Positions 5,416 through 33,031 of a DNA stretch of 64,000 nucleotides are shown here, in pieces (position 1 is the first letter of the stretch; the number at the start of each line of letters is the position of its first letter). The position numbers were made by a program, and so were the translations under genes. The notes under the pieces were generated by a model. It was not told the DNA's origin. It saw only the letters and a program-made list of their open reading frames with translations, and did not search any database. The DNA comes from Halohasta salina (GTDB lineage Archaea; Halobacteriota; Halobacteria; Halobacteriales; Haloferacaceae): assembly GCF_024178165.1 (NCBI RefSeq), contig NZ_JAMZIE010000002.1, positions 186,001-250,000 of the forward strand. Reading direction: 5' to 3'.

Positions 5416-5873
5416 GCGACCGTGAACTCCGCGTCTCGAAGATCCGCAACGGTACCGTCATCGACCACGTCACCGGTGGACAGGCGCTCAACGTGCTGTC
5501 GATCCTCGGCATCGACGGCTCGGAGGGACTGGGCGTCTCGGTCGTGATGAACGTCCCCAGCGACCGACTCGGCCGCAAGGACGTCGTGAAAGTCGAGGAC
5601 CGCGAGCTGAGCCAGTCGGAGGTCGACGTCATCTCGCTGATCGCCCCCGAGGCCTCGATCAACATCATCCGGGAGTTCGACGTCGTCCAGAAGAACCGCG
5701 TCGACCGCCCCGAGAGCGTCGTCGGGCTGCTGTCGTGTCCCAACCGCAACTGCATCACCAACGAACCCGAGCCGGTCGAAACCGACTTCACCGTCGTCGA
5801 AGAGGGCGTTCGGTGTACCTACTGCGGAACGATCATCCGCGAGGAGCTGGCCGACCACATCGACCCCGAGTAG
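5412..5873 (+). CDS. pyrI: Aspartate carbamoyltransferase, regulatory subunit
   Basis: A 153-residue regulatory chain that binds nucleotide effectors and bridges catalytic trimers. The N-terminal allosteric domain begins [19 protein letters not shown]. The C-terminal zinc domain has two cysteine pairs, CPNRNC and CTYC, about 25 residues apart, that hold the zinc contacting PyrB. It overlaps pyrB by four bases. Length and motifs are complete, so the pair should form an allosteric ATCase. Confidence 0.97.
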
Positions 5874-26999: not shown

Positions 27000-27341
27000 A
27001 TGGATACCGAGGGGCTCTTCGCGGTCGACCCCGACGATATCCCGCTGCTGGGAGCGACGTTCATGATCGCGGTTGGCTGTATCCTGCTGATCACCGATAT
27101 CGCGACCGGCCACCCCTTGGTCCCGTTTCTGATCGTTTCCGGGACGATCGCCTTCGTCGCCCTGACGCTCCAACGGATCCCCGAGCGCGATCTCACCGTG
27201 GTCGCCGCTGGAGTCGGGATGATAATCGGCAGTACGCTGGTGAGTGTCGACCTCCCGCTGCTGTTCGATTTCGACGGTCCGATCGGCGCGGCCTTCTTCC
27301 TGTTCGGCGCGATCGGGCTCTCCCGATATCTCGACGACTAG
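27000..27341 (+). CDS. Small membrane protein (113 aa), unknown
   Basis: A protein starting MDTEGLFAVDPDDIPLLGATF, with four hydrophobic segments of about 18-20 residues: around FMIAVGCILLITD, PFLIVSGTIAFVALTL, LTVVAAGVGMIIGSTL and GAAFFLFGAIGLSRYL. No motif is recognised. Its last four bases overlap the end of the convergent alkyltransferase-like gene. Confidence 0.65.
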   Translation: MDTEGLFAVDPDDIPLLGATFMIAVGCILLITDIATGHPLVPFLIVSGTIAFVALTLQRIPERDLTVVAAGVGMIIGSTLVSVDLPLLFDFDGPIGAAFFLFGAIGLSRYLDD

Positions 27342-27790
27342 TTTTCCAGTCGACGTAGCGCCGCGGCGATCCGTGGCGGGGTCGCTCCCTGCCCGTCCCG
27401 CACGCGGTGATCGGGGAGGAAAATGGGGATCGGGTTCGCTCGGAGGGCGTCCCGGACCGCTTCGAGATCGTCGTCGTCGCTCGGATCGAGGCCGGCGAGC
27501 CGTGCCAGCCGCGAGACGGTGACCGTCGACCCCGTCGCAACCGAGTCGAGGGCTTCGAGGACGTCCCGCTGGTCGGTCGGCACCGTCAGCCCGATCTCGG
27601 CGCGCTCGACGGGTGTCGGGTCACCGTGTAGATACGCCTCGACGGCGTCCAGCAACTCGTGGTCCGTCTCGGCGTCGGCTGGGACTTCCTCGGGGAACGA
27701 GACATCGATCACCCGGCCACCAGCGACCCCCAGCTGGACGACGCCGTCGAGGGAATCGAACCGTCGCGCGTAGATTCCTGCGGGAGACAT
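27338..27790 (-). CDS. Alkyltransferase-like protein lacking the acceptor cysteine
   Basis: A 150-residue member of the O6-alkylguanine-DNA alkyltransferase (MGMT) family. The DNA-binding domain has TVTVSRLARLAGLDPSD and the active-site block NPIPIFLPDHRVR, aligned to N-P-x-P-x-x-x-P-C-H-R-V. The cysteine position is Asp127 (codon GAT, 27410-27412), so it cannot accept an alkyl group. Alkyltransferase-like proteins elsewhere usually have Trp there and flag lesions for nucleotide excision repair. It is divergent from trpC, sharing the 88-bp upstream region. Confidence 0.85.
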   Translation of the reverse strand: MSPAGIYARRFDSLDGVVQLGVAGGRVIDVSFPEEVPADAETDHELLDAVEAYLHGDPTPVERAEIGLTVPTDQRDVLEALDSVATGSTVTVSRLARLAGLDPSDDDDLEAVRDALRANPIPIFLPDHRVRDGQGATPPRIAAALRRLEN

Positions 27791-27848
27791 TCTACCTCTG
27801 TCCAAGCCGCGGGTGGTTTCAAGGGTTCCGTCTCGTGGCGCAAGTGTT

Positions 27849-27876
27849 ATGTACATATACGTACATCAGTGTACAT
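27849..27876 (+). promoter_or_regulatory. Three 10-bp-spaced TGTACA-like boxes over the trpC promoter
   Basis: TGTACA at 27850-27855, CGTACA at 27860-27865 and TGTACA at 27870-27875 are spaced exactly 10 bp, one helix turn. The first two form an inverted repeat (ATGTACATA/TACGTACAT, eight of nine pairs). A TATA-like ACATATAC (27853-27860) lies between, 19-26 bp before ATG 27879. The arrangement looks like a repressor operator blocking TBP and polymerase. TGTACA is the TRP box core bound by TrpY in Methanothermobacter, as I recall it. Confidence 0.65.
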
Positions 27877-27878
27877 AG

Positions 27879-28649
27879 ATGAACTACACTGCGGAGGAGT
27901 TGGCACCAGCGGTCCGGGAGATCCTCGCGTCGGCCGCCGACCGTCCGGGAGGCGACTCGCGGGTCGACGTCGAGGCTCGGTCGCTGTCGGCGGCGTTCGC
28001 GGCCGCCGAAGATGACGGCCGCGTGCCGGTGATCGCGGAGGTCAAACCCACGAGTCCGACGACCGAGGGGACGACCGAGGCCGATCCGGTCGACCTCGCC
28101 GAGGCAATGGTCGAAGGTGGGGCGGCGGCGTTGTCGGTGCTCACCGAACCAGACCACTTCGGCGGCTCCGTCGAAAACCTCGAACGGATCCGTGCGGCGG
28201 TCGACGTGCCCGTCCTGCGCAAGGACTTCCTCCTGCGTGAGTCCCATCTCGACGCCGCCGAAAGCGACCTGATCCTGCTGATCGCCCGTTTCCTCGGCGA
28301 CGATCTCGAACCGATGCTTCGGGCCGCGGAAGACCGCGGCTTTCAGGCGCTGGTCGAGGTCCACACAGAGGACGAACTCGCGGCGGCGATCGAGGCCGGC
28401 GCGTCGATCATCGGGATCAACAACCGGGATCTCGGTCAGTTGGAAGTCGACCTCGCTACCTTCGAAAAACTGGCGCCCAACGCGCCAGCCGACGTGACCC
28501 TGATCGCCGAAAGCGGCGTGTCGACGGTCGAAGACGTACAGCGAATGCGTGAGACGGGGGCCGATGGACTGTTGATCGGAACTGCCATCATGGACGGCGA
28601 TCCAGAAACGAACACACAGCGGTTTACAGGAGCTACCAATGAGCACTGA
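27879..28649 (+). CDS. trpC: Indole-3-glycerol-phosphate synthase
   Basis: A 256-residue TIM-barrel enzyme closing the indole ring of CdRP in tryptophan synthesis. Motifs: [14 protein letters not shown] (catalytic lysine and phosphate site; the usual S-P-S is T-S-P), [36 protein letters not shown] and LIAESGVST. It is the first gene of a trpC-trpB-trpA block and lies immediately behind the boxed promoter. The stop overlaps the trpB start by 11 bp. Confidence 0.96.
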
Positions 28650-29928
28650 CGGCAAGTTCGGCGACTACGGCGGACAGTACGTTCCCGAGGCACTGATGCC
28701 CGCGATCGGGGAGTTAGACGACGCCTACCAGCGGTACGTCCTGAATAACGAAGACGGATTCATGGACGAGTTCCGCGAGCGGCTGGCTGATTTCGGGGGT
28801 CGACCCACCCCGCTGCAGCGTGCGGACCGGCTCTCGGAGCGCTACGACCTCGACGTCTATCTCAAACGCGAGGACCTGTTGCACGGTGGCGCACACAAAC
28901 TGAACAACGCCCTCGGGCAGGTCCTACTCGCCAAATATATGGGCAAAGAGCGGATCATCGCCGAGACCGGCGCGGGCCAACACGGCACTGCGACCGCGAT
29001 GGCGGCGGCGCATCTCGATATGCCCTGTACGATCTACATGGGCGAACGGGACATCAACCGCCAGCGCCCCAACGTCTTCCGGATGAAGCTCAACGGGTCG
29101 GACGTCAAACCGGTGACGGCGGGTCGCGGCACGCTCAAGGAGGCGATTTCGGAGACGATGCGCGACTGGGCGGCGACCGTCGAGTCGACCCACTACGTGA
29201 TCGGATCCGTCGTCGGCCCCCACCCGTTCCCGGCGATGGTCCGGGACTTTCAGGCCGTCATCTCCGAGGAAGCCCGCAGGCAGGCACAGGAGAAGATCGG
29301 CGGCCTCCCCGATTCGGTCATCGCGTGTGCGGGCGGCGGCTCGAACACGATGGGGACGTTCGCCAACTTCGTCGACGACGATGGCGCGGAACGGAGTTCC
29401 GCGGACGACCCGAGCGGCGACGAGCCGCGAGGGCGCGTCGACCTCTATGCGGTGGAGGCCGGCGGCTCCTCGCTCGCTGTCGACGAGGAGGCAGGTGTCG
29501 CACCCAACTCCGCGTCGCTGTCGACGGGCGAGGAGGGCGTCCTCCACGGCGCACGCACCAAACTCCTGCAGGATTCGTTCGGCCAGATCATGGAGTCCCA
29601 CAGCATCTCCTCGGGGCTGGATTACGCCGGTGTCGGGCCGGAGTTGGCCCACTTGGTCGACACCGACCGCGTGACGCCAGTGGCGGTCGACGACGACGTG
29701 GCGCTCGAAGGGTTCCATCGGCTCTCCCAGACGGAGGGAATCATTCCGGCCTTGGAGACCGCTCACGCCTTCGGCTACCTCGAAGAACACCACGCGGAGC
29801 TGTCCGGAAGCGTGATCGTCAACGTCTCCGGTCGCGGCGACAAGGACCTCCAGTCGGCGATCGAGGAGACCGACGCCCGCGACGTGCCGAACGCGCCGGA
29901 CATGTCGATGTTCGCGGAGGGAATCTAG
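28639..29928 (+). CDS. trpB: Tryptophan synthase, beta subunit
   Basis: A 429-residue PLP enzyme joining indole and serine. The PLP lysine is in [18 protein letters not shown] is the carboxylate loop, and [10 protein letters not shown] binds the PLP phosphate. It is a TrpB1-type with a full COMM domain for pairing with TrpA. An acidic insertion of about 20 residues ([20 protein letters not shown]) follows the phosphate loop, a haloarchaeal-looking expansion. The start overlaps trpC, and trpA begins directly after its stop. Confidence 0.97.
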
Positions 29929-30786
29929 ATGGCCGAAAACGAGGCGATCGCCGCGGCGTTCGCCGACGGCCCCGCCTTCATCCCGTATCTCGCGGTCGGC
30001 GACCCCGACTACGAGGCCTCGAAAGCGTACGTCGAGGCGCTGGCCCGCGGCGGCGCGGACATCATCGAACTCGGCCTCCCCTTCTCGGAGCCGATCGCCG
30101 AGGGCTCGACGATCCAGAACGCGATCGTTCGGGCGCTGGAAGGTGGGATGACCCCCAGCCGCTTTTTCGAGTTCGTCACCGAGTTGGACGTCGACGTTCC
30201 ACTCGTCTGCATGACGTATTATAACCTCATTTACCAATACGGACGATCCCGAGGGGGTGCTCCCGGTCCCGACGCCTTCGTCGAGCGCGCCGCCGAGGTC
30301 GGGATTTCAGGGCTCGTCGTCCCGGACCTCCCTGCCGAGGAGGCCGACCCGCTTCGGGAGGCCTGCGACGACCACGGGCTGGACCTCGTCTTTATCGTCG
30401 CGCCGACGACCGAAGGCGAGCGGCTCGAACGCATGATGGAGCGCGTCTCGGGCTACGTCTACGTGCAGGCTCGACTCGGGACGACCGGCGCCAAGACGGA
30501 CGTCTCGGACCAGACGACCCGGAGTCTCCAGCGGCTCTCGGAGTGGGACGTACCCAAAGCAGTGGGCTTCGGGATCTCCTCGGGCGATCAAGCGGCCAGA
30601 ATCGTCGCCAACGGGGCCGACGGGATTATCGTCGGCAGTGCGCTGGTCGACATCGTCGCGGAGGGAGCCAGCTCCGAGCGGCCGGTCGAGGAGACCGCCG
30701 CCGAACTGGAAGCGAAGGCCCGCGAACTCGCCGAGGGAACACGGGAGGGGGCGGCCCGACGCTCCCCCGATGTCGACGCCATTTGA
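29929..30786 (+). CDS. trpA: Tryptophan synthase, alpha subunit
   Basis: A 285-residue TIM-barrel enzyme cleaving indole-3-glycerol phosphate. Catalytic-site patterns: [28 protein letters not shown] (the catalytic glutamate region, with the usual DP replaced by EP), [10 protein letters not shown], and [12 protein letters not shown]. It starts one base after the trpB stop, so the two subunits are made together. The tail after about residue 255 is Ala/Glu/Arg-rich and lies beyond the family core. Confidence 0.96.
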
Positions 30787-30842: not shown

Positions 30843-31637
30843 ATGTCCGCAGGACTCACCGCTCGGCTCGAACGGGTTTCGACAGACGGCCGCTACCTGA
30901 TCGTCCCGATGGATCACGGGATCACGATGGGGGCCGTCACCGGACTCAAAGACCTCGAAGGCACCGTCGACGGCATTACCAGCGGCGGCGCCGACGCCGT
31001 CCTCACCCAGAAGGGGGTCGCCGGCCGCGTCCACCCGCACAAAAACGGCAGCGGCTACATCGTCCACGTCAACGGGTCGACGACGATCGGTCCGGACGAA
31101 AACGACAAGCGGGTGACCTGCTCCGTCGAGGAGGCCATCCGTGCGGGTGCCGATGCCGTCTCGTTCCATATCAACGTCGGCTCGAACTACGAGCCAAAGC
31201 AGATCGAAGATCTCGCGGAGCTGACGGGGGAGGCCAGCCGCTATGGGCTTCCCGTGTTGGCGATGGCCTACGCTCGCGGGCCGGGTATTCAGGGCGACGA
31301 GCCCGAATACCTGGGTCACGCCGTCCGGCTCGCCGAGGAACTCGGTGCCGACGTCGTCAAAACAGGCTACAGCGGCGATGCCGAGAGTTTCCAGCACGTC
31401 TGTGAGTCGACGAATCTCCCGATCGTGATCGCCGGCGGAGCCCGGGGAACGGACGCCGAAACCGTCGAGATGGTCCGCGGCGCGATGGATGCCGGGGCGG
31501 CGGGTGTCTCGATGGGCCGATCGATCTTCCAGCACGAGGATCCCGAATCGATCACTCGCGCCGTCTCGGCGGTCATCCACGACGATATGGACGCCGAGGA
31601 CGCGCTGGTCGCTGCCGGACTGACTGTCGAAGCCTAA
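30843..31637 (+). CDS. 2-amino-3,7-dideoxy-D-threo-hept-6-ulosonate synthase (class I aldolase family)
   Basis: A 264-residue archaeal ADH synthase (AroA'), the first step of the alternative shikimate entry, joining 6-deoxy-5-ketofructose phosphate and aspartate semialdehyde. Motifs: LIVPMDHGITMGA, ADAVLTQKGVAGR, and the Schiff-base lysine in ADVVKTGYSGD. Related fructose-bisphosphate aldolases share the fold, but its place just before AroB' and after trpCBA supports the aromatic role. ATG 30843 follows a 56-bp gap after trpA. Confidence 0.92.
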   Translation: MSAGLTARLERVSTDGRYLIVPMDHGITMGAVTGLKDLEGTVDGITSGGADAVLTQKGVAGRVHPHKNGSGYIVHVNGSTTIGPDENDKRVTCSVEEAIRAGADAVSFHINVGSNYEPKQIEDLAELTGEASRYGLPVLAMAYARGPGIQGDEPEYLGHAVRLAEELGADVVKTGYSGDAESFQHVCESTNLPIVIAGGARGTDAETVEMVRGAMDAGAAGVSMGRSIFQHEDPESITRAVSAVIHDDMDAEDALVAAGLTVEA

Positions 31638-31867: not shown

Positions 31868-33031
31868 ATGACGCGAACGGTCTGGTTGAAAGCCGACGAC
31901 ACGGTCGGCGACTGGGAGACACGCAAGCATCGGATCACGGCGGCGATCGAAGCCGGCGTCGACTGGGTACTGGTCGACGAAAGCGACGTGGGGCGGGTCC
32001 GCGAACTCGGCGATATCAACGTCGCGGCGTTCCGGTCGGACGCCGATATGGTCGACGAGGCGGAATCCGAGACGGCAGTCGCCGACGCCTACTTCGTCGG
32101 CAAGGACGGCGAGGGCGACGGGACGGTCGACCTCCCCTCGGATTTCTCCGGTTCTGCGGATCTGACGACGCTTCGTCACAGCGACGACCGAGCACAGGGG
32201 GCCTACGTCCGCATCTTCGACCAGGACTACGAAGCCTTTGCTGAGGCCGCGGCCCGCGATGCCGATTACACGATCGTCATCGGCGAGGACTGGACGATCA
32301 TTCCCCTCGAAAACCTGATCGCCCGGATCGGCGAGGAGACCGATCTACTGGCCGGTGTGACGACAGCCGACGAGGCCCAGACCGCCTTCGAGACCCTCGA
32401 ACTGGGGGCCGACGGCGTGCTCCTCGACACCGACAACCCCGACGAAATACGGGAGACCGTCGAGGTGCGGGACGCCGCCGAGCGCGAGACGCTGGATCTC
32501 CAGTACGGCGAAGTCCTCGAGGTCGAACGGACCGGGATGGCCGACCGCGTCTGTATCGACACCGGGAGCCTGATGGACCACGACGAGGGGATGTTGATCG
32601 GCTCGATGTCCCGTGGGCTGTTTTTCGTCCACGCCGAGACCGCCGAATCCCCGTACGTCGCCTCCCGGCCGTTCCGGGTCAACGCCGGGGCGGTCCACGC
32701 CTACGTCCGGACGCCGGACGGCGGCACGAAGTACCTCGCGGAGTTGAAAAGCGGCGACGAGGTGCAGGTCGTCGACACCGACGGCAACACCCGCGAGGCG
32801 ATCGTCGGCCGCGTGAAGATCGAGAAACGGCCCATGTTCCGGGTCGAACTCGACGTCGACGGCGACCGGATCGAGACGCTGCTCCAGAACGCCGAGACGA
32901 TCAAGGTCGCGACGAGTGAGGGCCGGAAAGCCGTCACCGATCTCGAAGCCGGCGACGAGATGCTGATCTACTACGAGGACGTCGCCCGCCACTTCGGTGA
33001 AGCAGTCGAAGAAAGTATTATCGAAAAGTAA
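31868..33031 (+). CDS. 3-dehydroquinate synthase II (archaeal AroB')
   Basis: A 387-residue NAD-dependent enzyme converting the ADH synthase product to 3-dehydroquinate. Family hallmarks: MTRTVWLKADDTVGDWE, the PLENLIA segment, DTGSLMDHDEGMLIGSMSRGLFFVHAE, FRVNAGAVHAY and the C-terminal EDVARHFGEAVEE. Together with the preceding gene and trpCBA it makes a five-gene aromatic block. The spacer of 230 bp suggests a separate promoter. Confidence 0.95.
   Translation: MTRTVWLKADDTVGDWETRKHRITAAIEAGVDWVLVDESDVGRVRELGDINVAAFRSDADMVDEAESETAVADAYFVGKDGEGDGTVDLPSDFSGSADLTTLRHSDDRAQGAYVRIFDQDYEAFAEAAARDADYTIVIGEDWTIIPLENLIARIGEETDLLAGVTTADEAQTAFETLELGADGVLLDTDNPDEIRETVEVRDAAERETLDLQYGEVLEVERTGMADRVCIDTGSLMDHDEGMLIGSMSRGLFFVHAETAESPYVASRPFRVNAGAVHAYVRTPDGGTKYLAELKSGDEVQVVDTDGNTREAIVGRVKIEKRPMFRVELDVDGDRIETLLQNAETIKVATSEGRKAVTDLEAGDEMLIYYEDVARHFGEAVEESIIEK

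Follow-up and report, generated by a model that had tools for sequence, protein, structure and literature searches.

A conserved array of TGTACA boxes on the trpC promoter of Halohasta salina, probably a TrpY-type operator shared by two trp operons

The trpCBA block and its promoter

The window analysed here is the whole 64,000-nucleotide stretch of the H. salina contig NZ_JAMZIE010000002.1 (positions 186,001 to 250,000). Its forward strand carries a block of tryptophan genes beginning with trpC (27879..28649), which encodes indole-3-glycerol phosphate synthase (PF00218, 228 bits). This is followed by trpB (28639..29928), for tryptophan synthase beta, assigned from PF00291, from its position between trpC and trpA and from homology to trp-operon trpB genes, and by trpA (29929..30786), for tryptophan synthase alpha (PF00290, 291 bits). 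The last gene of the block (30843..31637, forward strand) is a probable homologue of OE1472F of Halobacterium salinarum, judged by its position after trpA and by the published gene order trpCBA-OE1472F (PMC4162585). A gene for 3-dehydroquinate synthase II is located 3' of the block at 31868-33031, so that the block adjoins a gene for one of the early reactions of aromatic biosynthesis. An alkyltransferase-like gene (27338..27790, reverse strand; PF01035, 37 bits) is divergent from trpC.

Directly 5' of the trpC ATG at 27879, three TRP-box-like hexamers were read on the forward strand: TGTACA at 27850..27855, CGTACA at 27860..27865 and TGTACA at 27870..27875. Their starts are exactly 10 bp apart and two of them are perfect, just as the original prediction had described. 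Boxes 1 and 3 are conserved across the order, and box 2 has the consensus GTnCRT in the relatives. The near-perfect inverted repeat noticed earlier in the first two boxes is also present (14 of 16 positions), but it adds little because TGTACA is its own reverse complement and any two copies would give nearly the same result; the conserved flanks (TGTACATT) suggest that the boxes are direct repeats. An inferred BRE-like element, CGCAAG (27839..27844, forward strand), occupies positions −11 to −6 relative to box 1 and recurs in almost every trpC upstream, and the inferred TATA element of trpC, GTTATGTA (27846..27853, forward strand), overlaps box 1; CTTATGTA is the consensus in most relatives. 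The proposal that the array covers both the TATA box and the probable transcription start thus holds for the inferred TATA element, while the start region is a presumed one. The array had also been expected to bear on the divergent alkyltransferase-like gene. This part was not upheld, as the likely start of that gene (27790) lies 60-85 bp from the array and none of the tests connected the boxes with the gene, which is probably outside the regulon.

No enrichment in the window was seen for the hexamer TGTACA alone (5 observed vs. 2.8 expected), but the spaced triple is enriched: with at most three mismatches it gave no match in shuffled versions of the window. No Rfam family was found at the array site, so the site does not correspond to a known leader RNA or riboswitch.

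Genome-wide search and the second trp operon

A pattern search of the 3.04-Mb genome identified the triple at trpC, with a single mismatch, as the best match. When up to three mismatches were allowed, the trpC site (plus a shifted overlap) was accompanied by only one other independent place, and the reversed control pattern had no match in the whole genome at the same tolerance. The perfect pair TGTACA-N4-TGTACA occurs once in the genome, approximately 35 bp before trpD. This gene is the first of a second trp operon, in which it is followed by trpF and, further downstream, by frames resembling trpE and trpG. Thus, the two trp operons carry the best examples of the motif in the genome. The other 0/10/20 triple, with three mismatches, is situated at 5618-5643 of locus L005 (G000:C18:569618-569643), in a gene-poor stretch adjoining a lactate-permease-like gene.

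Conservation at haloarchaeal trp promoters

The check attached to the original prediction, a search for spaced hexamers before the trp genes of related genomes, was carried out in two ways. By pattern, the perfect pair was found in 53 of 293 genomes of the order and its reversed control in 7; 34 of the 48 perfect-pair sites that were fetched stand just before trpD. Perfect pairs away from trp genes (L008, L025, L026, L032, L309-L311 and L314) look like chance matches and were set aside. To avoid selecting for the motif, trpC and trpD were also identified through protein searches and the sequences upstream of them taken whether or not they contained boxes, each being scored as the number of matches over the 18 box positions with a threshold of 13. 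With this unbiased sample the conservation was clear: 47 of 49 trpC upstreams reached at least 13 (46 at least 14), as did all 50 trpD upstreams, these being counts over related genomes from 13 families and not independent events. For comparison, 0.11% of random haloarchaeal windows score at least 13 for a 0/10/20 triple. The promoters of tryptophanase genes served as a control from the same metabolic area, and only 1 of 30 scored at least 14; they were therefore rejected as further members of the regulon.

The trpC upstream consensus reads CGCAAG-y-CTTATGTACA..GTnCRTT..TGTACA..ATG. At trpD the boxes are placed at 0, 10 and 30 and the consensus is CGACA..CTTAAG..TGTAC..TTGTACATTACAA..GTACATTGGTG..ATG. 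In both sets of upstreams the distances between good hexamers are, with few exceptions, multiples of 10 bp. Box 2 of trpD extends to a 13-bp palindrome that is much conserved in L093-L142 and was not seen at trpC.

Box arrays in methanogens

Phased boxes are found beyond the haloarchaea. Among 20 trp operons of Halobacteriota methanogens, 17 have a 10-bp-phased triple before the first gene (shuffle P < 0.05, mostly ≤ 0.007), and over these 300 kb hexamer pairs are most frequent when 10 or 20 bp apart (8 for each distance), every other spacing from 7 to 25 having 0-3. Three Halobacteriota methanogens (L294, L298 and L299) have a TrpY-family gene and lack a phased array before trp, so the array and the regulator family do not always occur together. 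Six genomes of Methanobacteriaceae-like archaea have trpE and a TrpY-family gene in divergent orientation, and between the two genes, beside the TATA box of trpE, are boxes spaced by 10 bp, such as the TGCGTA/TGTATA/TGTACA of L265 at 0/10/20. The weakest of the six arrays, that of L270, contains no exact TGTACA.

The TRP-box consensus is reportedly TGTACA, and TrpY is said to prevent the binding of TBP. In Methanothermobacter thermautotrophicus, TrpY binds TRP boxes between trpY and trpE and represses trp transcription with tryptophan (PMC6737238). The haloarchaeal promoters resemble this system (trpY-trpEGCFBAD) in having TGTACA-type boxes at a 10-bp pitch on trp promoters by the TATA element, the boxes of the comparison having been read in related Methanobacteriaceae. 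They differ from the trpE-linked TrpY systems in the placement of the arrays, which in haloarchaea overlap or follow the TATA element instead of preceding it.

A TrpY-family candidate regulator

The genome contains one TrpY-family protein, for which the original prediction had proposed a search: a 166-residue member of NF053754 (235 bits against a cut-off of 180) encoded at G000:C23:61445-61933. Its gene follows hisB on another contig, unlinked to trp, and no TGTACA box was found in its promoter. The family was matched in 146 of 147 Halobacteriota genomes, mostly once in each, and in all trp flanks fetched neither the TrpY-family query nor four Lrp queries detected a linked regulator. Identity to the trpE-linked members of the Methanobacteriaceae is 36-42%. 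Residues V53, D54, R55, R56 and G149 are invariant in both groups, with G149 bearing the same number in each. The predicted fold (mean pLDDT 84, pTM 0.51) consists of a winged HTH with the recognition helix at 55-67 and an ACT domain at 94-165, and most of its top PDB hits are ACT domains. The candidate thus shares with TrpY of M. thermautotrophicus the membership in NF053754, the predicted winged HTH and ACT architecture, the conserved recognition-helix residues D54 R55 R56 and G149. Insertions and the G149R substitution reportedly spoil assembly of the inhibitory complex of TrpY.

Unlike in M. thermautotrophicus, where trpY is divergent from and adjacent to trp and autoregulated, the H. salina gene is separate and boxless, and the arrays stand on two separate operons. 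The adjacency of trpY and trp is the gene order of the type organism and is not needed for the mechanism.

A probable TRP-box operator

That the arrays constitute a conserved tryptophan operator in haloarchaea is well supported. We consider the array at trpC to be a TRP-box operator through which a TrpY-type, tryptophan-responsive regulator controls both trp operons, and give this reading a probability of approximately 75%. The TrpY-family protein is put forward as the binder from the shared motif, the shared family and the published co-induction of the operons: when aromatic amino acids are lacking, H. salinarum induces both trpCBA-OE1472F and trpD1FE1G1 (PMC4162585). Tryptophan as the signal and repression as the effect are likewise inferred. 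The idea that haloarchaea share the TrpY mode of tryptophan control therefore stands as far as sequence comparison reaches, with the conserved boxes, the TrpY-family gene and the same layout in Methanobacteriaceae on its side.

In the mechanism that we propose, a TrpY-type regulator, sensing the amino acid by its ACT domain and contacting DNA by its winged HTH, would bind TGTACA boxes that all point to the same side of the helix. With tryptophan in ample supply, the resulting complex would deny TBP and RNA polymerase access to the promoter. At trpC it would cover the TATA element as well as the presumed start region, boxes 2 and 3 filling the stretch up to the ATG, which would be the start region if the message is leaderless. 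At trpD it would fill the stretch just after the TATA box, the third box preceding a GGTG Shine-Dalgarno-like sequence. Both trp operons would in this way be switched together.

Several observations speak against a TrpY-type operator. Apart from the unlinked, boxless regulator gene and the three array-less methanogens, the TrpY homologue of Thermococcus does not regulate trp (PMC6737238). The Haloferax trpCBA promoter has been called not tightly regulated (PMC13147458), which lowers expectations for the size of any effect. In addition, another regulator, LrpA2, has been proposed for H. salinarum on the basis of its own 14.9-fold induction when aromatic amino acids are lacking (PMC4162585).

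The main rival explanation is an Lrp-type binder, with the induction of LrpA2 in its favour. The array may be a real trp operator bound by another protein, such as the Lrp/AsnC-family LrpA2 (Trh1), with the TrpY-family protein doing something else. Lrp proteins often bind palindromes of the TTGTACATTACAA kind, into which box 2 of trpD extends, and several Lrp/AsnC loci are present in this genome. However, trpC shows the recurring hexamers only and lacks the extended palindrome, no Lrp gene flanks any of the trp loci that were fetched, and the same array is located beside a trpE-linked TrpY-family gene in Methanobacteriaceae. Of the haloarchaeal Lrp/AsnC regulators LrpA1 and LrpA2/Trh1, it is LrpA2 that answers aromatic amino-acid supply, in H. 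salinarum (PMC4162585). On balance we regard an Lrp/AsnC binder as unlikely, if worth keeping in mind. A second view, that the boxes are core promoter elements (TATA and start region) kept for basal transcription, could draw on the overlap of box 1 with the inferred TATA element and on the loose regulation reported in Haloferax. It is very improbable: boxes 2 and 3 are clear of the TATA element, the trpD boxes all follow the TATA box while those of the Methanobacteriaceae precede the trpE TATA box, and the triple is missing from the rest of the genome save one site and from nearly all tryptophanase promoters. A chance cluster of hexamers would agree with the lack of TGTACA enrichment in the window, but the absence of the triple from shuffles, its near uniqueness in the genome and its conservation across the order and beyond already refute it.

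Control of aromatic amino-acid operons is known from another archaeon. Like the TrpY-type regulator proposed here, Tar (TK0271) of Thermococcus kodakarensis would act on such operons, and is known to regulate them; it differs from our candidate in being an activator encoded in the aro operon of the very organism whose TrpY homologue is inactive on trp (PMC6737238). A 2019 paper remarks that members of the haloarchaea-containing TrpY branches had yet to be studied (PMC6737238). In the literature that we searched, which did not extend to the primary TrpY papers, we found no report of TRP boxes in haloarchaea and no assigned regulator of haloarchaeal tryptophan synthesis. The present analysis offers a precise operator, one candidate regulator gene in single copy and a regulon of two operons, which can be tested in the genetically tractable Haloferax volcanii, a species that also carries the family. 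If confirmed, regulator and operator would form a pair of great age that is conserved widely among archaea. We lean towards a scenario in which a TrpY/TRP-box regulon goes back to the shared ancestor of Methanobacteriota and Halobacteriota and was kept in haloarchaea, with an unlinked regulator, joint control of two split operons and, in some lineages, an extension to a putative tryptophan transporter.

Further box-like sites

The transporter in question is an SNF-family Na+ symporter in two genomes of family f3 (L009 and L010), in which a perfect TGTACA-N4-TGTACA stands at 1501-1516, just before the start of the gene. This symporter may carry tryptophan and be controlled in the same way; the SNF transporter of the present genome is without boxes. 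No tryptophanase match was obtained in this genome. The tryptophanase upstreams of genus g7 (L327, L338, L339, L348 and L351) contain a weak TGYACA..CGTCCA pair about 10 bp apart and approximately 90 bp before the start. Finally, four genomes of genus g2 (L305-L308) share a conserved GTGTACAACCCTGTACAATTCGG at approximately 1470-1505, which in L306 precedes a TFB-like gene by about 130 bp.
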